The notes beneath the pieces were generated by a model. The model was not told the origin of the DNA. It saw only the letters and a program-made list of their open reading frames with translations, and did no database searches. A program made the position numbers and the translations under genes. Positions 19,357 to 56,638 of a stretch of 64,000 nucleotides of DNA are shown piece after piece (the stretch's first letter is position 1; each line of letters starts with the position of its first letter). Source of the DNA: Microterricola gilva (GTDB lineage: Bacteria > Actinomycetota > Actinomycetes > Actinomycetales > Microbacteriaceae); assembly GCF_004217495.1 (NCBI RefSeq), contig NZ_SHLC01000001.1, forward strand, positions 868,001-932,000. The letters run 5' to 3'.

Positions 19357-19673
19357 CGCGGCTTCCGCGGCGCCCGGTTCACGGCGGTACTCGGCTTCGG
19401 GGGCGGCCTCGTTCCTCGGCTGCTCCCTCGAGCCGGCGTGGGTCTCTCGACCCGGCGTGGGTCTCTCGACCCGGCGTGGGTTTCCTCGCGCCGGCGCGGG
19501 TCTCTGCACGCTGGCTTGAGCGAGCGTCGCCGCGACGAAGGAGCAGCGACGCCCGCGACGCCCTGAGCGGATCTGCGGAGACTGGGTGCCGCGGCTTTCG
19601 CGGCGCCCGGCTCACGGCGCTACTCTGCTTCGGGGGCGGCCTCGTTCCTTGGCTGCTCCCTCGAGCCAGCGTG
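19357..19673 (+). repeat. Repeat-rich intergenic region (modules C and D, 19-bp tandem)
   Basis: The 373-bp gap between the OsmC gene and the secreted-protein gene holds no credible gene. Two 84-bp near-identical copies lie at 19357-19440 and 19590-19673. Each contains module C, starting CTTCGGGGGCGGCC and ending CCCTCGAGCC, which also occurs in the 30-kb array. Between them, a 19-20-bp tandem unit with core CGGCGTGGGT repeats four times at 19434-19511. A 68-bp module D at 19506-19573 recurs at 30874-30941. Confidence 0.8.
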
Positions 19674-23976: not shown

Positions 23977-25305
23977 GTGGATTCCGTGCTTCTCTTCGTT
24001 CTTGGCGTCGTCATTCTGGCGGTCGGCCTCGCCGTGTCGATCGCCCTGCACGAAATCGGGCACCTCGTGCCCGCCAAGCTCTTCGGCGTCAAGGTCACCC
24101 AGTACATGATCGGCTTCGGGCCGACGCTCTGGTCCAAGCGCAAGGGTGAGACAGAGTACGGCGTGAAGGCGATTCCCTTCGGCGGCTACATCTCGATGAT
24201 CGGCATGTTCCCGCCGGCCAAGGATGGCACGTCGCGCAGCGCCAACACCGGCTTCCTCAGCAGCCTCGCGCAGGACGCCCGCTCGGCCAGCGCCGAGACG
24301 ATCGGCGAGGGCGAGGAGCACCGCGCCTTCTATCGCCTGCCGGTGTGGAAGCGCATCATCATCATGTTCGGTGGACCGTTCATGAACCTGCTCATCGCCG
24401 TCGTGCTCTTCGCCGTGTTGCTGATGGGCTTCGGCTCCGCGCAGGCCAGCACCACGATCGGCAGCGTCTCCTCCTGTGTGCAGCCGGCCGGTTCGACCAG
24501 CACGGAGTGCGGTCCGAACGATCCGGCCGCACCGGGCGCCGCAGCAGGCATGCTGCCGGGGGACCGCCTCGTCAGCATCGACGGCACGCCGGTCACGAGC
24601 TGGGAGCAGTCCACGGAGGCCATCCGCGCCTCGGCCGGCACGGCGCTCGTCGTCGTGGTCGAGCGCGACGGCGCCGAGAAGACCCTCACTCTCACGCCGC
24701 TGCTGACCGAGCGCCCCGTGTTCGATGAGGCGGGCAAGCCGGTCACGGATGCCGCAGGCGCCACCGTCACCACCGAGGTCGGTTTCGCGGGCATCGGCCC
24801 GGCTGGCGAGCTCGTGCAGCAGCCGGCATCCGCCGTGCTGCCAGCCGTCGGCGACAACATCTCCGGCGTCACCCACATCATCCTGAACCTGCCGCAGCGC
24901 ATGGTCGACGTCGCCAACGCGGCCTTCGGGACGGAGGAGCGCGACCCGAACGGCCCGATCAGCGTCGTCGGCGTCGGCCGGGTGGCCGGCGAGATCGCCG
25001 CGCTCGACAGCCTGAGCGTCGAGAGCAAGGTCGCCAGCATGGTCGGCCTGCTCGCCTCGCTCAACATCGCGCTGTTCGTGTTCAACCTGGTGCCGCTGAT
25101 GCCGCTCGACGGCGGCCACATCGCCGGAGCCCTCTGGGAGGCGATCCGCCGCGGCTTCGCGAAGCTGTTCCGCAAGCCGGACCCGGGCCCCGTCGACATG
25201 GCCAAGCTGATGCCGCTCACCATGGTCGTCGTGATCGTGCTCGGCGGGATGAGCGCGCTGCTCGTCTACGCCGACATCGTGAAACCGGTCAACCTCTTCG
25301 GCTAG
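23977..25305 (+). CDS. Site-2 intramembrane zinc protease (RseP/Rip1 family)
   Basis: This 442-aa M50 metalloprotease has four predicted membrane segments. The zinc motif HEIGH is near residue 27 in the first helix. A periplasmic PDZ domain covers about residues 180-245 (GAAAGMLPGDRLVSIDG), and the third zinc ligand lies in LMPLDGGH near 372. It cleaves membrane-embedded anti-sigma factors or signal peptides; mycobacterial Rip1 is the model. The GTG start is set by the -10 box 6 nt before it. A perfect 22-bp hairpin 18 nt after the stop separates it from the convergent dehydrogenase gene. Confidence 0.93.
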   Translation: MDSVLLFVLGVVILAVGLAVSIALHEIGHLVPAKLFGVKVTQYMIGFGPTLWSKRKGETEYGVKAIPFGGYISMIGMFPPAKDGTSRSANTGFLSSLAQDARSASAETIGEGEEHRAFYRLPVWKRIIIMFGGPFMNLLIAVVLFAVLLMGFGSAQASTTIGSVSSCVQPAGSTSTECGPNDPAAPGAAAGMLPGDRLVSIDGTPVTSWEQSTEAIRASAGTALVVVVERDGAEKTLTLTPLLTERPVFDEAGKPVTDAAGATVTTEVGFAGIGPAGELVQQPASAVLPAVGDNISGVTHIILNLPQRMVDVANAAFGTEERDPNGPISVVGVGRVAGEIAALDSLSVESKVASMVGLLASLNIALFVFNLVPLMPLDGGHIAGALWEAIRRGFAKLFRKPDPGPVDMAKLMPLTMVVVIVLGGMSALLVYADIVKPVNLFG

Positions 25306-25323
25306 CTCCGCGACACTGCGAGC

Positions 25324-25378
25324 GAACTCGTAGAAACGGCTCCCCATCCGCTCGGAGGGGAGCCGTTTCTACGAGTTC
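25324..25378. terminator. Bidirectional hairpin terminator
   Basis: The arms at 25324-25345 and 25357-25378 form a perfect 22-bp stem around an 11-nt loop. It lies between the 3' ends of the convergent site-2 protease and succinate-semialdehyde dehydrogenase genes. The stem includes AGAAACGGCTCCCC paired with GGGGAGCCGTTTCT. Its symmetry suits termination in both directions, although a classic U run is absent. Confidence 0.75.
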
Positions 25379-25395
25379 GACGGATGCGGCTGAGC

Positions 25396-26946
25396 TTAGC
25401 GGCGGCGGATGCCCTTCAGTACCGCAGCCATCACGAGCATCACCCCGCTGAGCGCGGCGAACTCCGCGCCCGTGCGCGGCAGCTGGACCAGCCCGGTCGC
25501 GTGCGAGATGGTGACGGGTTCGACGAAGCGCAGCAGGCCCTCGCGGCCGTTGCGGCGGCCGACGCCGGACTGCTTGACGCCGCCCATCGGGGCATCGACC
25601 GAGCTGAAGCTCCCGCGGTAGCCCTCATTCACGTTCACGCTGCCGGCGTCGATGGCCTTGGCAAGGCGCAGCCCGCGGGCGGTCGAGCCGCTGAACACGG
25701 AGGCGTTCAGGCCGTAGTCGCTGGCGTTGGCGGCGAGGATCGCCTCCTCCTCGCTGTCGACGACGCTGATCGCGACGACTGGGCCGAACGTCTCCCCGGC
25801 GAAGCACGCCATCTCGCTGGTGACGCCGCTGAGCACGGTTGGTTCGAAGAACAGCGGGCCGAGGTCGGGGCGCGCGTTGCCGCCCGCGACGATCGTCGCA
25901 CCCTTGGCGACGGCGTCCGCCACGTGCTCCTGCACGCGGGCGAGCTGCGCCGGCGTTGTCAGCGAGCCGACGTCGCTGCCGAAGTCGAAGTTCGCGCCCT
26001 GCACGAGGTTGCTCACCCGTGCGGCGAGGGCCGCGATGAACGGCTCCGCGACGCCGCGTTCGACGTAGATCCGCTCGATGGAGACGCAGAGCTGGCCCAT
26101 CGACGAGAAGCAGGCGTACGCGGCATCCGCAGCGGCCTTCTCCGGGTCGACGTCGTCGAGCACGATGAGCGGGTTCTTGCCGCCGAGCTCGAGGGAGGCG
26201 CCGACGAGACGCCGGCCCGCCTTCTCGGCGACGCCGCGGCCGGTCGCCGTCGAGCCCGTGAAGCAGATGTAGTCGGCCTCATCGGTGACGGCCCCTCCGA
26301 TCTCGGCGCCGTCGCCCGCGACGACGGCCCAGAGGGCGCGCGGCACGCCGGCGTCGATGAACGCCTGGCGGACGGCGAGGATGCTGAGCGCGCCCTGGTC
26401 GTCGGCCTTCTGCACGACGCCGCAGCCGGCGGCGAGGGCGGGAACGACGTCCATGGCGGCGAGGCTGAGCGGGTAGTTCCACGGCGTGATCACGCCGGCG
26501 ACGCCCTTGGGCTTGTAGCGCACGCGGGTGGAGACGACGGTCGGGATGCCGCCACGGCGGCGCTCGCCGCGGAGTACAGGGCGTGCGGCGAGGGCGTTGT
26601 AGCGGGTGACGCTCAACACCTGGAAGAACTCCTCGAAGGCCTGGCCGCGCGTCTTGCCGGTCTCGGACTGCAGCACGTCCAGCAGCGCCTCGCGACGCTC
26701 GAGCACATTGTCGTGCGCCTGCAGCAGCACCGCGCGGCGGTGTGCGAAGCCGGCGCGGGCCCAGGCGAGCTGCGCCATCCTTGCACGCGCGAACGCGTCG
26801 GAGACGTCGGAGACGCTGCTGTGCGGCAGCTCATGGAGCACCTCCCCGGTGAATGGCGCGGTCACGGCGCGCGTCGTTCCGGAGGTGGCGACGAGGTCGC
26901 GATCGAGTTCGGCGATGAAGCTCGGGTGCAGCGGAGAGGCAGACAT
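25396..26946 (-). CDS. Succinate-semialdehyde dehydrogenase (NADP+)
   Basis: This 516-aa aldehyde dehydrogenase of the GabD2/SSADH group has the NAD(P)-binding block VITPWNYPLSLAAMDV near residue 157, FTGSTATGRGVAEKAGR near 235, the catalytic Glu in SLELGGKNPL near 260 and the catalytic Cys in SSMGQLCVSIERIYV near 294. It oxidises succinate semialdehyde to succinate and would complete the GABA route begun by GabT. A Lys/Arg-rich C-terminus follows a hydrophobic stretch. The ATG at 26946 is preferred over 26955 because the -10 box TAGAAT (26954-26959) overlaps the upstream ATG. It is divergent from the MFS gene. Confidence 0.9.
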   Translation of the reverse strand: MSASPLHPSFIAELDRDLVATSGTTRAVTAPFTGEVLHELPHSSVSDVSDAFARARMAQLAWARAGFAHRRAVLLQAHDNVLERREALLDVLQSETGKTRGQAFEEFFQVLSVTRYNALAARPVLRGERRRGGIPTVVSTRVRYKPKGVAGVITPWNYPLSLAAMDVVPALAAGCGVVQKADDQGALSILAVRQAFIDAGVPRALWAVVAGDGAEIGGAVTDEADYICFTGSTATGRGVAEKAGRRLVGASLELGGKNPLIVLDDVDPEKAAADAAYACFSSMGQLCVSIERIYVERGVAEPFIAALAARVSNLVQGANFDFGSDVGSLTTPAQLARVQEHVADAVAKGATIVAGGNARPDLGPLFFEPTVLSGVTSEMACFAGETFGPVVAISVVDSEEEAILAANASDYGLNASVFSGSTARGLRLAKAIDAGSVNVNEGYRGSFSSVDAPMGGVKQSGVGRRNGREGLLRFVEPVTISHATGLVQLPRTGAEFAALSGVMLVMAAVLKGIRRR

Positions 26947-27015: not shown

Positions 27016-28392
27016 ATGACCGCAACGGAGCGCGCCCTTTCCCGCAGAACAGTCGTCGGCTATGCCCTGGGTTCACTCGGCACGGGCGGCTTCGCGACGC
27101 TGCCCGGCCTCGTGCTCGTGTTCTACATGACGGACACCCTCGGCATCGGTGCGCTACTCGCGGGCGTGCTCGTGACGGTGGCCAAGATCTGGGACGTCAT
27201 CATCGACCCGGTCATCGGTGCGCGGAGCGACAGCGCGCTGCGCCGGAGCGGCTCCCGCCGCGGCTTCATGCGCGCCGGTGCGCTGCTGCTTCCGCTGTTC
27301 TTCGTGCTGACCTTCGCCGTTCCGGCCGGGCTGCCCGCCGCGACATCCGGTGTCTGGGTGCTGCTGGCCTTCGTGCTCACCGCGACGGCCTTCAGCCTGT
27401 TCCAGGTGCCGTACATCGCGCTGCCGGCCGAGATCGCCGACGGCTACGACCAGCGCACCCGGCTGCTCACCTGGCGGGTCGTCGTGCTCACCTTCTCCAT
27501 CCTGCTGTTCGGCGCTGGCGGGCCGATGCTGCGCAACCTCGGCGGCGACAACGAGTACCTCGGCTACCTGCTGATGGCGATCGTCGCCGGAGTCGTGATC
27601 GGCATCGGGATGCTCCTGGCCTCCCGGGTCGCACCGCGCGGCGTCGTCGTCGCGGCGCCGGCCGAGCCCTCTGGCGGCATCCGTCGGCACTACGCGGCCG
27701 GCATCGCCGTGCTGCGCCGCTCGCAGCCGTTCCGGGCGCTGCTGGCGACGTTCATGCTGCAGGGCCTCGCGACCGGCGTGATGCTGGCAGGGGCGAACTA
27801 CGTCGCCGTGTGGGTGCTGCACTCCGAGGACGCGCTCACCCTGCTCTTCGTCGCCCTGATCGCGCCTGCGCTGTTCTGCGCGCCGCTCTGGGGCGTCATC
27901 GCCCGCCGCATCGGCAAGGAGCGCGGCTTCGTGCTGGCCAGCATGCTCTTCGGCGTCGCGGCGCTGGCGCTGACCGCGATGCTGTGGGCGCCGGGCAGCT
28001 GGGTCTACCTCCCCGTCGCCCTCGCCGGGGCAGGCTACGCGGGCATGCAGTCGCTGCCGATGGCGATGCTGCCCGACGTGATCTCGCACGATGCGGCAAC
28101 GCACGGCGACGGCCAGGCCGGGACCTTCAGTGGCGTCTGGACGGCCGGCGAGACGATCGGCATGGCGCTCGGCGCGACGGCGCTCACGCTCATGCTCGCG
28201 CTGACGGGCTACACCGAGAGCGTCGGCACGACGAGCGTCGTGCAAGGCGAGGCGGCCGTGGCCGGCATCGTGCTGAGTTTCAGCGTGCTGCCGGCGGCGC
28301 TCATCGCGCTCAGCCTCCTGACGTTGCGGCGCTACGCGCTGCGACGAGGCGACATTGACCGGAGTGACATCGAAGCGGAGGCACTGGCGTGA
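27016..28392 (+). CDS. MFS carrier of the GPH (glycoside-pentoside-hexuronide) family
   Basis: This 458-aa membrane protein has 12 predicted helices and the GPH:cation symporter pattern: YALGSLGTGGFATLPGL at the N-terminus, AKIWDVIIDPVIGARSD near residue 60 (the family's D-x3-DP-x2-G block), and YIALPAEIADGYDQRTRL near 135. GPH carriers move sugars or related solutes with Na+ or H+. It overlaps the PLP-enzyme gene by 4 nt (GTGA), so the carrier and enzyme probably serve one pathway. The solute is not predictable here. The ATG is fixed by the -10 box 6 nt upstream. Confidence 0.88.
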   Translation: MTATERALSRRTVVGYALGSLGTGGFATLPGLVLVFYMTDTLGIGALLAGVLVTVAKIWDVIIDPVIGARSDSALRRSGSRRGFMRAGALLLPLFFVLTFAVPAGLPAATSGVWVLLAFVLTATAFSLFQVPYIALPAEIADGYDQRTRLLTWRVVVLTFSILLFGAGGPMLRNLGGDNEYLGYLLMAIVAGVVIGIGMLLASRVAPRGVVVAAPAEPSGGIRRHYAAGIAVLRRSQPFRALLATFMLQGLATGVMLAGANYVAVWVLHSEDALTLLFVALIAPALFCAPLWGVIARRIGKERGFVLASMLFGVAALALTAMLWAPGSWVYLPVALAGAGYAGMQSLPMAMLPDVISHDAATHGDGQAGTFSGVWTAGETIGMALGATALTLMLALTGYTESVGTTSVVQGEAAVAGIVLSFSVLPAALIALSLLTLRRYALRRGDIDRSDIEAEALA

Positions 28393-29948
28393 GCATGGAG
28401 TTCGAACAGGAATCAGGGGCGGTGCTTGAGCGCCTCGACGCGCTGCGCGCCGCGGATGCGCCGACGCACGGCGGCCGCGTGCTCTCCTACGTCTACGATT
28501 CGGGCATCGCCGAGATCGACGCGCTCGCCGCCGCCGCGGTGCGCGCCGTGCAACCGGTGAATGCCCTGGACCCCACGACCTTCAGCTCGGTCGCGGTGAT
28601 GGAGCGCGAGATCGTCGGCTTCGCCCGTGCGGTGTTCCACGGTGACGACGCCGTCGTCGGCACCGTCACGAGCGGCGGAACCGAGAGCTGCCTGCTCGCC
28701 GTCAAGACGGCCAGGGAGATCTGGCGTGCTGATGCCGCGGCCAGGGGCGTCGACCACCGGGCGACCGTTCCGCGCATCATCGCGGCCAGCTCCGTGCACG
28801 CGGCCTTCCACAAGGCGGCCGAGTACTTCGGGCTGCGGCTCGAGTTGGTGCCGGTGGATCCGGCATCCGGCCTGCCTGCCGTCGCCGACTTCGCCGCGCT
28901 GCTGGCAGACGCCGACGACGTCGCCCTCGTCGTGCTCAGCGCGCCCAGCTACCCCCACGGCGTGATCGACCCGATCGCGGAGGTGTCTGCGCTCGCGGCG
29001 GCGGCCGGGATCAGCTGCCACGTCGACGCCTGCTTCGGCGGCTTCGTGCTGCCGTGGTGGCCGGGCCTGGACGCGGCGAGCTGGGACATGCAGCTGCCGG
29101 GTGTGACGAGCCTCTCCGCCGATCTGCACAAGTACGGCTACACGCCCAAGGGGGCGTCGGTGCTGCTGCAGCGCGGCCGCGACCGGCAGCGCAAGCAGTA
29201 CTTCGCGACGACCGGCTGGCCCGGTTACCCGGTCGTCAACTCGACGCTGCTCGGCTCGAAGTCGGCAGCGGCGCTCGCCGCGGCGTGGGCGATCACGCAG
29301 ACGCTCGGGCAGAGCGGTTTCGCCGAACTGACGGCGAGCTGTGCCAGGGCGACCGCGACGCTGCTCGACGTGATCCGCGGCATCGACGGACTGCGCGTCG
29401 TCGGGGAGCCGACGGGGCCGGCGATCGCCGTCACCGCCGACGAGACCGTGCCGGCCGAGCGCCGCGTCGACCCGCACCACTGGGCCGACCAGGCGCGCAC
29501 GCACGGCTGGCAGCTGCAGCTGCAGCCGGGCTTCGACCAGGCCGGGACCACCAGACCCGGCGGCGCATGGCTGCCCGCGACGGCGCACCTCACGGTGACA
29601 CCCGTGACCGAGTCGCGGCTGCCAGAGCTGTCGGCGGCGTTGGTCACAGCCGCCGATGAGGTGCGCGGCGTGCCACACGTCGACGTCGGGCCGCTGTTGG
29701 GGTCGCTCGGTGCGGCCCTCGGCGGATCCCTGCCGGAGACCCTCGACGCGGCGACGGCCTACGCGATGCTGAGCGGCATCGGGCTGGCGCCCGGTGCGCA
29801 GGATGCCGGAGCTGCGGATGCGGCGGACGCCGGAGCGGGAGCGTTGCCTGATCGGCTCGCGCCGTTCCTCGCGCTCGTCGAAGCGCTGCCACCAGCGGTG
29901 GCCGAGCCGCTGCTCACCGAGCTGATCGCCCGACTCGTCGAGCCCTGA
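28389..29948 (+). CDS. PLP-dependent decarboxylase / S1P-lyase-like enzyme
   Basis: This 519-aa fold-type I PLP enzyme has TVTSGGTESCLLAVKTAR near residue 95, the PLP Asp/His region CHVDACFGGFVLPW near 210 and the Schiff-base Lys in SLSADLHKYGYTPKGASV near 245. The ADLHKYGYTPKG block is closer to sphingosine-1-phosphate lyase-like members than to classic glutamate decarboxylases. A C-terminal extension of about 100 residues is Ala/Asp-rich. It is translationally coupled to the GPH carrier. The physiological substrate is unknown; a phosphorylated amino-alcohol or an aromatic amino acid is possible. The GTG at 28389 or the ATG at 28395 could be used. Confidence 0.85.
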   Translation: MSMEFEQESGAVLERLDALRAADAPTHGGRVLSYVYDSGIAEIDALAAAAVRAVQPVNALDPTTFSSVAVMEREIVGFARAVFHGDDAVVGTVTSGGTESCLLAVKTAREIWRADAAARGVDHRATVPRIIAASSVHAAFHKAAEYFGLRLELVPVDPASGLPAVADFAALLADADDVALVVLSAPSYPHGVIDPIAEVSALAAAAGISCHVDACFGGFVLPWWPGLDAASWDMQLPGVTSLSADLHKYGYTPKGASVLLQRGRDRQRKQYFATTGWPGYPVVNSTLLGSKSAAALAAAWAITQTLGQSGFAELTASCARATATLLDVIRGIDGLRVVGEPTGPAIAVTADETVPAERRVDPHHWADQARTHGWQLQLQPGFDQAGTTRPGGAWLPATAHLTVTPVTESRLPELSAALVTAADEVRGVPHVDVGPLLGSLGAALGGSLPETLDAATAYAMLSGIGLAPGAQDAGAADAADAGAGALPDRLAPFLALVEALPPAVAEPLLTELIARLVEP

Positions 29949-30864
29949 GCGCGACGCGCAGCGTCGCGAAAGGCGGCAGCCAAACCCCAGGCAATCTCAG
30001 GAACCGCAAGCGATGCTGGTGCGGTCTCGGTGTCGCCTCGGTGCGGCTGGGGTGCGGCCTCGGTTTCGATACGGCCGTGGACGGCCTACTCAACCAGCGG
30101 GGGTTTCACGCGGTGTCAGGGCTTCGGGGGCGGCCTCGTTCCTCGGCTGCTCCCTCGAGCCAGCGCGACGCGCAGCGTCGCGAAAGGCGGCAGCCAAACC
30201 CCAGGCAACCTCAGGAACCGCAAGCGATGCTGGTGCGGTCTCGGTGTCGCCTCGGTGCGGCTGGGGTGCGGCCTCGGTTTCGATACGGCCGTGGACGGCC
30301 TACTCAACCAGCGGGGGTTTCACGCGGTGTCAGGGCTTCGGGGGCGGCCTCGTTCCTCGGCTGCTCCCTCGAGCCAGCGCGACGCGCAGCGTCGCGAAAG
30401 GCGGCAGCCAAACCCCAGGCAACCTCAGGAACCGCAAGCGATGCTGGTGCGGTCTCGGAGTCGCCGCGGTGCGGCCTCGGTTTCGATAGGGCCGTGGACG
30501 GCCTACTCAACCAGCGGGGGTTTCACGCGGTGTCAGGGCTTCGGGGGCGGCCTCGTTCCTCGGCTGCTCCCTCGAGCCAGCGCGACGCGCAGCGTCGCGA
30601 AAGGCGGCAGCCAAACCCCAGGCAATCTCAGGAACCGCAAGCGATGCTGGTGCCGTCTCGGTGTCGCCTCGGTGCGGCCTCGGTTTCGATACGGCTCAGG
30701 GCTTTGGGGGCGGCCTCGTTCCTCGGCTGCTCCCTCGAGCCAGCGCGACGCGCAGCGTCGCGAAAGGCGGCAGCCCAACCCCAGGCAGTCTCAGGTACCG
30801 CAAGCGCTGCTGGTGCAGTCTCGGAGTCGCCTCGGTGCGGCCTCGGTTTCGATACGGCGTGGGG
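29949..30864 (+). repeat. Five-unit ~214-bp tandem repeat array
   Basis: Unit starts are at 29949, 30163, 30377, 30580 and 30743, giving lengths of 214, 214, 203 and 163 bp plus a partial last unit. Each unit begins with module A, a palindrome GCGACGC-GCA-GCGTCGC followed by GAAAGGCGGCAGCC. Full units then carry module B (TTTCGATACGGCCGTGGACG and flanks) and module C (CTTCGGGGGCGGCC to CCCTCGAGCCAGCG). Unit 3 lacks 11 bp and unit 4 a further 40 bp covering most of module B. The array starts within the last codons of the PLP-enzyme gene. Open frames across it are not genes: 214 is not a multiple of 3, so the reading frame shifts at each unit. Confidence 0.9.
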
Positions 30865-30873
30865 CGCGTTTGT

Positions 30874-30941
30874 GCACGCTGGCTTGAGCGAGCGGCGCAG
30901 CGACGAAGGAGCAGCGACGCACGCGAAGCCCTGAGCGGATC
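30874..30941 (+). repeat. Module D, second copy
   Basis: This 68-bp segment (GCACGCTGGCTTGAGCGAGC to GAGCGGATC) is nearly identical to 19506-19573 and closes the tandem array. The remaining 95 bp up to the mrp stop codon hold nothing I recognise. Confidence 0.75.
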
Positions 30942-31036
30942 CGTGAATCACTGGCCCAGGAGAAGGCACAGTCGAGGCCGGGGCGGAGACGGTGGCGGTG
31001 GCGGTGTCGAGCCTGTGGTGCAGCCGAGGCGGCGGA

Positions 31037-32206
31037 TCAGCCAACGCTGAACGGCAGCGCGCGGCCGGCGAGGCCACGACCGCTGCCTGCGACGGCATCC
31101 GCGACCCGCAGAATGGCCTGGCTGGCCGGGTCGGCAGGGTCGCTCAGCACGATCGGCTCGCCGGCGTCTCCACCCACACGCAGCGCGATGCTGAGCGGGA
31201 TGCGGGCGAGCACGGGCACGGGGCCGGCGCCATCCGGCTGCGAGGCGCTCAGCCGGCGGGCGACCTCGTCGCCGCCGCCGGAGCCGAAGAGCTCGAGCAC
31301 GCTGCCGTCCGGCTGCGCGAGGCCGGCCATGTTCTCGATCACGCCGAACACGCTCTGCCCGGTCTGCCTGGCAACGACGCCGCTGCGTTCGGCAACGTCG
31401 GCGGCGGCCGGCTGCGGCGTCGTGACGACGAGCACCTCGGCGTGCGGCAGCAGCTGGCCGATCGAGATCGCGACGTCGCCGGTCCCCGGCGGCAGGTCAA
31501 GCAGCAGCACATCGAGGTCGCCGAAGTAGACGTCGGTGAGGAACTGCGTCATCGTGCGGTGCAGCATCGGTCCGCGCCAGGCGACGGCCGCCGATGCGTC
31601 CTCCACGAACATGCCGATCGAGATCACCTTGACGCCGTGTGCGACCGGAGGCAGGATCATCTCGCCGACGCGGGTCGGCTTCACGGCGCGCATGGTGCCG
31701 GCTGCAGCACCCGGGACCTGCTCGGTCAGGCCGAGGATGGCCGGGATCGAGAAACCGTAGACGTCGGCGTCGAGGAGCCCGACGCGAAGGCCCTTCGCCG
31801 CGAGGGCGACTGCGAGGTTCGCGGTGAGCGTCGACTTGCCGACGCCGCCCTTACCGCTGGTGACGGCGAAGACACGCGTGAGCGCGTCGGCCGTGAACGG
31901 CATCGTGCGGGCGCCGGTGCCCTGCAGCTTCGTGGTGAGCGCCTTGCGCTCCTCGACGGTCATCACGGCCATCTCCAGTTCGGCGTTGCCGGCGCCGACG
32001 ACGGCCTCGAGCGCGCTGCGCGCGTCATCCTCGATGCGGCGGGCGGCCGGGCATCCGATGATCGTCAGCTTGAGGACGGCGTGCGCGCGCCCGGCACCGT
32101 CGACGCTGAGCGCGCCGACCATGTCGAGCTCCGTGATGGGCTTGCGGATCTCCGGGTCGATCACCCGGGCCAGCGCCTCGCGGAGCTGCTCAGGAGTTGC
32201 CGGCAT
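31037..32206 (-). CDS. mrp: Mrp/NBP35-type P-loop ATPase (iron-sulfur carrier)
   Basis: The 389-aa protein has an N-terminal MIP18/DUF59 domain (residues 1-85, VIDPEIRKPITELDMV) fused to a ParA-like ATPase. The deviant Walker A TSGKGGVGKSTLTANLA is near residue 115 and LLLDLPPGTGDVAIS near 222. Family members assemble and deliver Fe-S clusters; a CxxC motif is not seen in this protein. The ATG at 32206 is chosen over 32236 since the DUF59 domain starts there. Its start overlaps the DUF1003 stop by 17 nt. The order MgtE_N protein - DUF1003 - Mrp is shared with mycobacteria (Rv1232c to Rv1229c region, from memory). Confidence 0.93.
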   Translation of the reverse strand: MPATPEQLREALARVIDPEIRKPITELDMVGALSVDGAGRAHAVLKLTIIGCPAARRIEDDARSALEAVVGAGNAELEMAVMTVEERKALTTKLQGTGARTMPFTADALTRVFAVTSGKGGVGKSTLTANLAVALAAKGLRVGLLDADVYGFSIPAILGLTEQVPGAAAGTMRAVKPTRVGEMILPPVAHGVKVISIGMFVEDASAAVAWRGPMLHRTMTQFLTDVYFGDLDVLLLDLPPGTGDVAISIGQLLPHAEVLVVTTPQPAAADVAERSGVVARQTGQSVFGVIENMAGLAQPDGSVLELFGSGGGDEVARRLSASQPDGAGPVPVLARIPLSIALRVGGDAGEPIVLSDPADPASQAILRVADAVAGSGRGLAGRALPFSVG

Positions 32207-32756
32207 CCCGCGTCCCGTTCTCCGTGCCGCTCTCATGCTGGGCCTTGGCAGCGGCGGCCTCGCGCTCGTCGAGCTGCTCGAGCAGGCTGCGCAGCTCCGA
32301 TCGGATGAAGTCCTTCGACGCCATGTCGGAGATCGACAGCCGGAGGGCGACGACCTCGCGGGCGAGGTACTCGGTGTCGGCGAGGTTGCGCTCCGCGCGC
32401 TGCCTGTCCTGCTCGATCTGCACCCGGTCGCGGTCGTCCTGGCGGTTCTGCGCGAGCAGGATCATCGGTGCGGCGTATGAGGCCTGCAGCGAGAGGATCA
32501 GGGTGAGTGCCGTGAAGCCGATGGCTGCGGAGTCGAAGCGCCACTCCTCTGGACCCCAGGTGTTGAAGCCGAGCCAGACCAGGCAGAACAGCGAGAGGCC
32601 GGCGAGGAAGCCCGGCGTGCCCATGCCGCGGGCGATCGCCTCGGTGAAGCGGCCGAAGCGGTCGCGGCTGGCCGCCTTGTCGCGGGCGGTGATCGCCGGG
32701 CCGCGCAGGCCCTTGGGGGAGTCGAGGCGGACGTCGCTCTTGTTAGCTCGTGCCAT
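32190..32756 (-). CDS. DUF1003 membrane protein
   Basis: This 188-aa protein matches DUF1003, with RFGRFTEAIARGMGTPGFL near residue 32, two membrane helices (FLAGLSLFCLVWLGFN and IGFTALTLILSLQASYAAPM) and the typical MILLAQNRQDDRDR turn. A charged, probably coiled-coil C-terminus follows (residues 115-188). The function is unknown. The ATG at 32756 fits the family; a longer start at 32810 adds Arg/Cys-rich residues that overlap the upstream gene. It overlaps both neighbours (14 nt and 17 nt), so all three genes are co-translated. Confidence 0.9.
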   Translation of the reverse strand: MARANKSDVRLDSPKGLRGPAITARDKAASRDRFGRFTEAIARGMGTPGFLAGLSLFCLVWLGFNTWGPEEWRFDSAAIGFTALTLILSLQASYAAPMILLAQNRQDDRDRVQIEQDRQRAERNLADTEYLAREVVALRLSISDMASKDFIRSELRSLLEQLDEREAAAAKAQHESGTENGTRDAGNS

Positions 32757-38366: not shown

Positions 38367-39236
38367 ATGAATTCTCGGCGTTTTCGCGGCCCCATCGACC
38401 TGCACGCGCACTCGAGCGTCTCGGACGGAACCGAGACGCCGAGCCAGCTCGTGCGGGCCGCGCTGGAGGCGGGGATCGGCACCGTGGCGCTGACCGACCA
38501 CGATTCGACCGCCGGCTGGGTCGAGGCGGCATCCGCGGCCAAGCAGGCCGGGATCACGCTGATCCCCGGCATGGAGCTCTCCACCCGGGTCCAGTACGCG
38601 AGCGTGCACATGCTCGCGTACCTCTTCGACCCTGGCAATGCAGCCCTCGTCGCCGAGACGGCCCGCATCCGCCAGGCCAGGCTCACCAGGGCGGAGGAGA
38701 TCGTGCAGCACATCGGCCGCGACTTCGCGCTGAGCTGGGACGACGTACTCGCGCAGTCGACGGAGGGCGCGACGATCGGGCGGCCGCACATCGCCGACGC
38801 CCTCGTCGCCAGGGGGCACGCGCCGACCCGCTCCGAGGCCTTTGCAGGCATCCTGCACTGGAAGCGGGGCTACGCCAAGCCGCACTACGCGCCTGACCCG
38901 CTGACCGGTGTTCGCCTCGTGCGCGAGGCCGGGGGAGTGCCGGTGCTCGCGCACCCCGGCACCCGCGGCGCCGAGCACGTGGTGCCGGAGGCCGAGCTGA
39001 AGCGACTCGCCGACGCCGGGCTGTTCGGCCTGGAGATCGACCACCGCGAGAACCTGCCGGACGCGAAGAAGCGACTGCACGCGCTGGCCGACAAGTTCGG
39101 CCTAGCCGTGACCGGATCCAGCGACTACCACGGCGACGGCAAGCCCAACCGGCTCGGCGAGAACACGACGGCGCCGGAGGTGTTGGAGCGCATCATCGCC
39201 GAGTCAACCGGCAGCGAGCCGGTCTATCCCGACTAA
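38367..39236 (+). CDS. PHP-domain phosphoesterase
   Basis: This 289-aa polymerase/histidinol-phosphatase (PHP) domain protein has the metal-binding motifs IDLHAHSSVSDGTETP (residues 9-24), LTDHDST near 48, IPGMELST near 69, PVLAHPG near 195 and GSSDYHGDGKP near 250. Relatives such as YciV/RnmA remove 5' nucleotides from 3',5'-phosphorylated adenosine or short RNA, which is a plausible activity here. The ATG is fixed by a leaderless -10 box. The gene is divergent from the EEP-family gene, with repeats downstream. Confidence 0.92.
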   Translation: MNSRRFRGPIDLHAHSSVSDGTETPSQLVRAALEAGIGTVALTDHDSTAGWVEAASAAKQAGITLIPGMELSTRVQYASVHMLAYLFDPGNAALVAETARIRQARLTRAEEIVQHIGRDFALSWDDVLAQSTEGATIGRPHIADALVARGHAPTRSEAFAGILHWKRGYAKPHYAPDPLTGVRLVREAGGVPVLAHPGTRGAEHVVPEAELKRLADAGLFGLEIDHRENLPDAKKRLHALADKFGLAVTGSSDYHGDGKPNRLGENTTAPEVLERIIAESTGSEPVYPD

Positions 39237-39351
39237 GCGCGCCCGCCGGTTGAGCCCGCCCCGCCGGTTGAGCTTGCCCCGCCGACCGAGCCCGTCGAAA
39301 CCGCCCGCTGGCTGAGCCGGCCCCGCCGGTTGAGCCTGTCGAAACCGCCCG
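39237..39351 (+). repeat. Short direct repeats of the GTTGAGCCTGTCGAAAC type
   Basis: The elements CCGCCGGTTGAGC (three times, near 39246, 39262 and 39321) and GCC(T/C)GTCGAAACCGCCCGCTG (twice) repeat in tandem after the PHP gene. A similar element in reverse orientation, GACAGGCTCAAC, occurs near 56608. Confidence 0.65.
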
Positions 39352-39451
39352 CTGGTCGAGTAGCGAGGAACGAGCGTATCGAGACCTCGCGGGTCGGAGC
39401 CTTCGCACGGACCTCGGTCTCGATACGGCCGTAGACGGCCTACTCGACCAG
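39352..39451. repeat. Large nested palindrome (module B family)
   Basis: The outer arms CTGGTCGAGTAG (39352-39363) and CTACTCGACCAG (39440-39451) are perfectly complementary. The inner arms CGTATCGAGACC (39375-39386) and GGTCTCGATACG (39416-39427) are also perfect. The right half matches module B of the 30-kb array. This is a dispersed actinobacterial intergenic palindrome, not a transposon end; no transposase is near. Confidence 0.8.
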
Positions 39452-39471
39452 CGTGGCTGTGGCCGCCGACA

Positions 39472-39510
39472 GAGAGAGCCCGCCGAGATCAGATCTCGAC
39501 GGGCTCTCTC
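39472..39510 (-). terminator. Terminator of DEAD-box helicase gene
   Basis: GAGAGAGCCCG and CGGGCTCTCTC, with further pairing of CGAGAT and ATCTCG inside, form a long near-perfect stem 14 nt after the helicase stop codon. Confidence 0.65.
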
Positions 39511-39523
39511 ACTTGCTGTGCTG

Positions 39524-44323: not shown

Positions 44324-44511
44324 CCTGGCCGCGGCGCCCGCGGCCGGTCGAGTCGCCTCCCGCCAGTAATTCAGGCAGGGTGACGCGTTCGGCAGCGATG
44401 CAGGCGATTCCGCGGCAGCGGTGACGATTCTTCCTGAATTGCCGACAACAACGCTGCCCGAGCGACCGCCCCGCTACTCGAGCAACGGAGGGCGAGCAAC
44501 CGATGCGGTCG

Positions 44512-56478: not shown

Positions 56479-56527
56479 GGCAGAAGACTCTCGCATTCGC
56501 GCCGAACGCGTCGAAAGTTATCCACAG

Positions 56528-56638
56528 CACGACGCGAAGCGTCGTGAAAGGCGGCAGCCCCACCCAAGGAAACTTCGGGAAGGGTCACCGATGCTGGCAG
56601 GGTTCCGACAGGCTCAACCCGCGAGTTGAGCCAGCGGG
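56528..56638. repeat. Diverged module A with hairpin, intergenic
   Basis: The palindrome CACGACGC-GAA-GCGTCGTG (56528-56546) is followed by AAAGGCGGCAGCC and GATGCTGG, matching module A of the 29.9-kb array with changes. A GACAGGCTCAAC element (near 56607) and GTTGAGCCAGCGGG complete the 111 bp up to the stop of the zincin-like gene. Confidence 0.7.

Follow-up and report, generated by a model that had tools for sequence, protein, structure and literature searches.

A tandem array of REP/BIME-like modules between two convergent genes of Microterricola gilva, most likely a lineage-specific amplification

Bacterial interspersed mosaic elements (BIMEs) are built of REPs (PMC2817692), which are given as sequences of 20-40 bp and for which a role in termination has been suggested (PMC3733652). 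The latter source describes REPs tagged with GTAG, as well as CGTC REPs without a dedicated transposase. RAYT transposases are the usual explanation of REP-like repeats, and the Y1 enzymes of the Actinobacteridae are described as belonging to the IS200 subclass only (PMC6006769). In a table of RepRanger results, three Actinomycetota genomes, including that of Arthrobacter livingstonensis, are listed with REP counts (PMC12306157), and therefore REP-like palindromes in Actinomycetota are not new as such. However, the passage around that table names no element family; the main text of the paper contains none of the strings 'microbacter', 'RAYT' and 'TnpA', and that of PMC3733652 does not contain 'actinobacter'. 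Regarding single hairpins, DNA mini-hairpins with a GNA loop, for example d(GCGAAGC), are reported to be extraordinarily stable (PMC4686876). Judging from titles and the first lines of abstracts, we found no paper on the repeats described here.

The stretch that we analysed, called the window below, comprises 64,000 nucleotides of the chromosome of M. gilva and contains a tandem array at 29949-30860. This array is real and is placed between two convergent genes. The upstream one, of the pyridoxal-dependent decarboxylase family (28389-29948, + strand; PF00282, E=2.4e-16), ends with a stop codon (29948) that abuts the array, and the downstream one encodes a P-loop ATPase of the Mrp/NUBPL type (31037-32236, - strand; PF10609, E=4.2e-76). 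In a self-comparison the identity at lag 214 was 0.80 over 29949-30376, against a mean of 0.27 and a maximum of 0.36 for about 2000 random placements elsewhere in the window, and thus the array is not a product of chance. An earlier note on this DNA had described five units of about 214 bp. There is indeed an array, but it consists of four units running from A to C (214, 214, 203 and 163 bp) plus a partial fifth of 120 bp.

All the modules of the units lie on the + strand. The A elements are found at 29949-30024 (102.7 bits with the A covariance model, R1), 30163-30238, 30377-30452, 30580-30655 and, in the truncated fifth unit, 30743-30818. B is a palindrome, GGTTTCGATACGGCCG-TGGA-CGGCCTACTCAACC, placed at 30062-30101, 30276-30315 and 30479-30518 in the first three units, and C follows at 30116-30165 (100% identical to the consensus over 50 nt), 30330-30379, 30533-30582 and, in unit 4, 30696-30745. 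There are 2 differences in 214 positions between units 1 and 2, and 8-11 in 120 between unit 5 and any other unit. The loss of defined pieces in units 3 and 4, already pointed out in the earlier note, was found as described and extends to unit 5: the linker before B is 11 bp shorter in units 3-5, a further 40 bp are gone in unit 4, where the right half of B is deleted up to C and the left part (30682-30694) is joined to C, and in unit 5 only the left part of B (30845-30857) is left, its right half and C being missing. The D element comes after the array, at 30874-30936 on the - strand. We also considered a coding tandem repeat, which was rejected because some unit lengths are not divisible by three and no Pfam family matches the open reading frame at 30041-30931.

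Regarding the modules themselves, A is 76 nt long, and the hairpin by which it had been defined is present but takes up only its first 20 nt. C and D, of 52 and 63 nt respectively, have common ends, TCAGGGCTTCG ... GAGCCAGCGTG, and different interiors. D had been taken as a module of its own closing the array, but it is an inverted variant of C. In this genome C and D alternate in opposite orientation in arrays at about 810, 1205, 2248 and 3024 kb, and the same alternation was seen at several loci of the sister genome (G003, Leifsonia sp. Root4); neighbours are about 19-113 bp apart, and once 474 bp. From the common ends and this alternation D can be recognised as the inverted partner of C, in a layout like that of BIMEs. 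The predicted fold of C was stronger than that of shuffled sequences (z -2.8 and -2.3), and that of D showed no clear excess (z -1.0 and -1.1).

The modules are also found separately in the window, as had been noted before: two C copies at 19389-19440 (+) and 19622-19673 (+) with a D copy between them (19506-19568, -), a B copy at 39416-39453 (+), within 39.3-39.5 kb, and an A copy at 56527-56602 (+) followed by a B2 element of the GGTTTCGACAAGCTCAACCA type. They are by no means limited to the window, since covariance models gave at least 75 matches of A, 81 of C and 79 of D in this genome, the C and D counts overlapping because their models cross-match in part. With one whole unit as the query, and 40 of the 173 first-look candidates scored, we obtained at least 67 matches in the chromosome. 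The five that lie in the array extend over most or all of the unit, and each of the other 62 covers a single part, mostly 1-77 (A), about 162-214 (C) or about 114-156 (B). The B-related string GGTTTCGACANGCTCAACCA has 62 matches in this genome. Among copies drawn from the better matches, mean column identity was 97% for 23 C copies, 89% for 19 D copies and 88% for 17 A copies. Modules occur singly, as recurrent composites (C joined to A, half a B joined to A, and A-linker-B) and as C/D arrays. In 129 A rows from the two genomes, GAGTA(G) directly precedes the hairpin in 15, the end of C precedes A in five by script count and in a sixth (L112) by eye, and a start of the GTTTCGA type follows closely after 20.

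Some A copies have arrangements of their own. One locus (L087, 221000-229700 of the chromosome) has seven A matches within a stretch of about 6.3 kb, and two of these stand in direct tandem and overlap at their ends. Two A matches of 96 nt have an extended hairpin (L068, 1555-1650, -; L087, 7067-7162, -), and two apex strings with GCGAAGC inside a longer stem probably come from them.

We file the modules of the array as REP/BIME-like, and by analogy their layout would be that of a BIME. C and D are short imperfect palindromes in many copies, as REPs are, with common ends, clustered and alternating in orientation like the regularly spaced REPs of a BIME, although their spacing varies. Both are nevertheless longer than the 20-40 bp given for REPs (PMC3733652), the host belongs to Actinomycetota, no RAYT was found, and a constant GTAG or CGTC tag was not seen in the consensus of C or D. 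The other strand of B does have GTAG beside its inner stem, and this, together with the mostly intergenic location, the dimers and clusters and the compensated stems of A, recalls the GTAG and CGTC super-families (PMC3733652), from which A, C and D differ by having no constant tag. The repeats are high-copy, genus-limited and non-autonomous and form inverted C/D pairs, as in the REPIN/RAYT (TnpA_REP) systems; unlike those, they have no PF01797 gene in the five genomes of the genus. The apex of A, GCGNAGC in 84 of 97 distinct rows with N free, and a potential GNNA loop in its core resemble the GNA/GNNA mini-hairpins (PMC4686876), although those are in-vitro fragments, and in A such a structure, which RNA might form too, would have a natural role only by inference.

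A is present in the five genomes of the genus, the four others having 26, 24, at least 81 and 20 matches, and outside the genus, under stricter filters, there was one marginal match (E 4.8e-4) among 54 genomes. C is found in all five as well (at least 21, 29, 94 and 17 matches in the four others) and in 0 of the 54. The D model was searched in the five genus genomes and gave at least 79, 54, 56, 118 and 34 matches. An exact search of a 22-nt piece of A in 84,980 species genomes, a collection that possibly does not include the genome of the window, returned 38 stretches: 27 in Leifsonia sp. Root4, 10 in Microterricola pindariensis and 1 in Microbacteriaceae bacterium VKM Ac-2854. The two modules A and C are nearly confined to one genus, the Microterricola-type Microbacteriaceae. 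The B-related GGTTTCGACANGCTCAACCA has 5 to 194 matches in each of the other genus members; of the 54 genomes outside, 3 contain it, one of these with 19 matches. We observed a single, weaker A copy in VKM Ac-2854 (L133, 4978-5052, -, 45 bits), which is named differently from the members of the genus.

The sister genome aligns collinearly with the window, in eight blocks that are 88.0-92.1% identical plus one short overlapping block at 85%. At the site of the array it has the stop codon, GCAACGTTTCACGCGGTG, one C, 22 bp and D, and no A. M. gilva has the same stop codon followed by A-linker-B, GGTTTCACGCGGTG and C, then the repeats of A-linker-B-C, the truncated unit and D. The junction between units reads CCAGCG/CGACGC, the slash marking the joint, the start of A reads TGAGCG/CGACGC and the end of C in the sister reads CCAGCG/TG. 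The junction is the expected product of a recombination between the end of C and the start of A across the 4-bp overlap AGCG, a mechanism that we infer from these strings. Most likely, A-linker-B was added before C and the A-B-C block was then duplicated across AGCG, and we regard the array as a REP/BIME-like mosaic that was most likely amplified in tandem in this lineage alone. The truncated fifth unit needs a further deletion, which simple duplication does not predict. Furthermore, six joints of C to A in the sister genome retain the TG (CCAGCGTG/CGCGACG), so that the two modules can also become joined by another route.

The opposite polarity, an array lost in the sister instead of gained here, is possible, since three other genomes of the genus carry a different gene beside Mrp; an attempt to polarise the array with these more distant members failed for the same reason. 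Apart from the array, four spacers of the window (25304-25397, 39235-39518, 44325-44503 and 56529-56627) are wholly different from those of the sister, with flanks about 90% identical; three of the four are convergent, and at 25.3 kb there is a perfect hairpin here and there are C-type repeats and an A in the sister.

We compared 77 A rows of this genome, some of which are fragments of one copy, with the sister genome. An orthologous A was found for 22, no A in the same orientation for 11, and 44 lay beyond the stretches retrieved. The 11 rows represent nine loci, and in five of these A is plainly absent or replaced in the sister: the array, the copy at 56.5 kb, L009, L060 and L088. L008 gives an ambiguous picture, at L086 the sister may have a decayed remnant of A, and at L045 and L064 it has A in the other orientation. 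L088 is the sole clean empty site: exactly the 83 bp that bear A are missing, two bases after a stop codon, and no target duplication is evident there. No terminal inverted repeats were visible on inspection of A, and neither hallmark of a MITE was therefore seen. The earlier note proposed that the repeats spread as single modules, and this is supported by presence and absence at orthologous sites, not by directly observed movement.

It had also suggested looking for a RAYT-type transposase elsewhere in the genome. The profile search, which covered the Y1 transposase family PF01797, was negative in the genome of M. gilva and in all five genomes of the genus, while it was positive in 3 of 59 relatives and in 5 of 14 control genomes. 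By this test the mosaic is not a RAYT/REPIN system. Three clusters of A, of which that at 221-229 kb is the densest, were inspected by eye, and the first 60 residues of each predicted protein there revealed no recognisable transposase.

Module A has an 8-bp stem, a GNA loop and a nearly invariant core, AAAGGCGGCAGCC, within which GGC-GGCA-GCC would form a GNNA loop. In the 97 distinct rows from the two species, 98.4% of the stem cells were paired, in an alignment that had been fitted to the model used for the pairing. Both sides had changed in 61 cells, compared with 6.0 (sd 2.2) in shuffles, and such changes were seen in 7 of the 8 stem pairs; compensated stems can also be produced by the shared ancestry of subfamilies or by hairpin-templated repair. 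In the loop, G is kept in 97% and A in 100%, and the middle base is free.

We then considered 19 pairs of orthologous A copies (18 after dropping four repeated rows, plus one added). The core had changed at 9 of 247 positions (3.6%) and the tail (41-71) at 108 of 585 (18.5%); the stem, the loop, the variable part (34-40) and the end (72-76) had changed at 31/304, 8/57, 43/133 and 31/88 respectively. In a strict set of 14 pairs, picked by eye for visibly alike 5' flanks, the changes were 5/182 in the core, 15/224 in the stem and 83/426 in the tail, with 0/28 at the loop G and A and 5/14 at the loop N. The difference between core and tail was significant in both sets (p=8.6e-10 and 2.8e-9), and that between core and stem gave p=0.003 for the 19 pairs and 0.10 for the strict 14. 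The comparison of core with tail is one within the element, and the profile used to find orthologs weights the core, so that decayed A copies may be missed. The slower core at loci common to both species suggests constraint in place, and A is probably constrained where it lies rather than being decaying mobile debris, as far as sequence comparison can tell. Gene conversion among A copies could also have kept the core alike. Regarding the stem pairs, 11 changes were compensated, 2 one-sided and 6 broken among the 19; the 4, 1 and 5 of the strict set make a weak case for selection on pairing and count against the reading of constraint.

According to a crude gene caller based on codon usage, 19 A sites of this genome are convergent, 22 tandem and 6 divergent, and in the sister genome these numbers are 25, 24 and 3; 20 of 67 and 19 of 71 rows respectively were left unclassed (inside genes, at locus edges or in long gaps), and many sites are common to both species. 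An unfiltered first pass over 75 A copies here had given 28 convergent, 24 tandem, 9 divergent, 10 inside genes and 4 at edges. Divergent sites thus make up 9 of the 99 classed in the two genomes, versus 8 of the 28 window spacers longer than 30 bp (the others being 7 convergent and 13 tandem). This preference for convergent and tandem over divergent spacers, counted for A sites only, is that of REPs. A strand bias of A (17 antisense, 5 sense) was dropped as a candidate, the sister genome having 11 and 13.

No terminator-like site was found in 29800-31100, where 0.7 were expected, and 29900-31000 has no Rfam match at E<=1; the only Rfam match of the window is a tRNA at 62.4 kb. The tRNA-Leu that ARAGORN places at 29885-29978 (-) is most likely false: it straddles the end of the gene and the A hairpin, and the Rfam tRNA model gave no match. 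On a larger scale, the largest interval free of A includes the point opposite dnaA in all three single-contig genomes of the genus. These intervals measure 0.80, 0.76 and 0.69 Mb, with rounded lengths for the other two genomes, and taken alone only the one in M. gilva (1.204-2.005 Mb) is significant. The B-related repeat is not depleted in it, with 9 of 62 matches and 13.6 expected.

The explanation that we prefer, with a rough probability of 0.75 for the whole of it, is that the array is a cluster of non-autonomous palindromic repeats, REP/BIME-like, in a 3'-to-3' intergenic spacer, which was amplified in tandem, with modules that spread and an A kept by selection. Ancestrally, the two convergent genes would have been separated by an inverted C-D pair. 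An A-linker-B composite would later, in this lineage, have come to stand behind the stop codon and ahead of C, and tandem duplication of A-linker-B-C would have followed, the first junction arising by slippage or illegitimate recombination at the AGCG that C has at its end and A at its start, and the later copies by unequal exchange together with local deletions. The modules may have been spread in the genome by an enzyme other than the Y1 transposases that were looked for, or by host replication or recombination acting on the hairpins. Once in place, at least A would be a structured element kept by selection, and most likely it acts as a hairpin at the 3' ends of genes, either in the RNA at the end of the transcript or as a DNA structure between convergent genes. 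The mosaic family with tandem amplification proposed in the earlier note agrees with the genome-wide modules, the composites and a sister locus that is without the array or has lost it.

Among the other explanations, the one that deserves most attention is that B and A derive from GTAG-tagged REPs, moved by a TnpA_REP enzyme that either belonged to an ancestor and was lost or acted transiently in trans. The GTAG beside the inner stem of B and the GAGTA(G) before some A copies speak for it, and both tagged and transposase-less REPs are described in PMC3733652. However, the tag accompanies only some A copies and did not appear in the consensus of C or D, PF01797 is absent from the five genomes of the genus, Actinobacteridae carry the IS200 subclass only (PMC6006769) and the 97% identity of the C copies, taken among the best matches, suggests a spread not long ago, so that we regard this origin as possible but clearly the weaker reading. 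It is less likely still that the modules are ordinary transcription terminators or 3' UTR hairpins whose number grew by chance copying. They would then fit the position behind stop codons and the role in termination proposed for REPs (PMC3733652), but no terminator-like site was found in the array region, the most conserved part of A is the core outside the long stem, and between tandem genes A is in sense orientation in 5 of 22 cases here and 13 of 24 in the sister, which is an inconsistent strand.

Two further readings are quite improbable. If the array were functional as an array, with its copy number under selection, for example as a binding array for a nucleoid or partition protein, its repeated hairpins between two genes would be accounted for, and actually no other spacer with five A copies appears among the matches listed; nevertheless, the sister locus has a single C and D and no A, units 4 and 5 have lost large pieces, and no second array of this unit was found in the window or in the 26 loci of this genome that were examined. 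MITEs mobilised by a DDE transposase would also be non-coding, dispersed and polymorphic for presence, as these repeats are, but neither the terminal inverted repeats expected in A nor the target duplication expected at the empty site was visible, and the conserved hairpin of A is at one end only. Finally, repeats of this length can be mis-assembled, and one unit could have been multiplied in the assembly. This is very improbable: the units differ at 2 to 11 positions, and therefore are not identical assembly duplicates, their graded divergence and three different deletions argue against simple assembly duplication, and the chromosome is a single contig of 3,666,811 bp, rated 100% complete.

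The preferred reading, a non-autonomous mosaic amplified at this locus, has a wider meaning. Here is a dense mosaic of REP-like repeats in Actinomycetota in which a RAYT was not found, and a sister genome that shows the alternative states locus by locus. What moves REP-like repeats without a RAYT, and whether they are parasites or kept hairpins, becomes testable in this genus. What lifts the case above the ordinary is the combination of a genus-restricted, structured A that shows signs of selection at the level of the site with the missing mobilising enzyme. We would tentatively, and with less than even odds, see in A a genus-specific structured hairpin that spreads without a Y1 transposase and is kept at individual sites, that is, an element of Actinomycetota that expands in copy number and has been domesticated for a regulatory or DNA-structural role. 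Judging from the orthologous A copies, these repeats may be kept hairpins rather than parasites.
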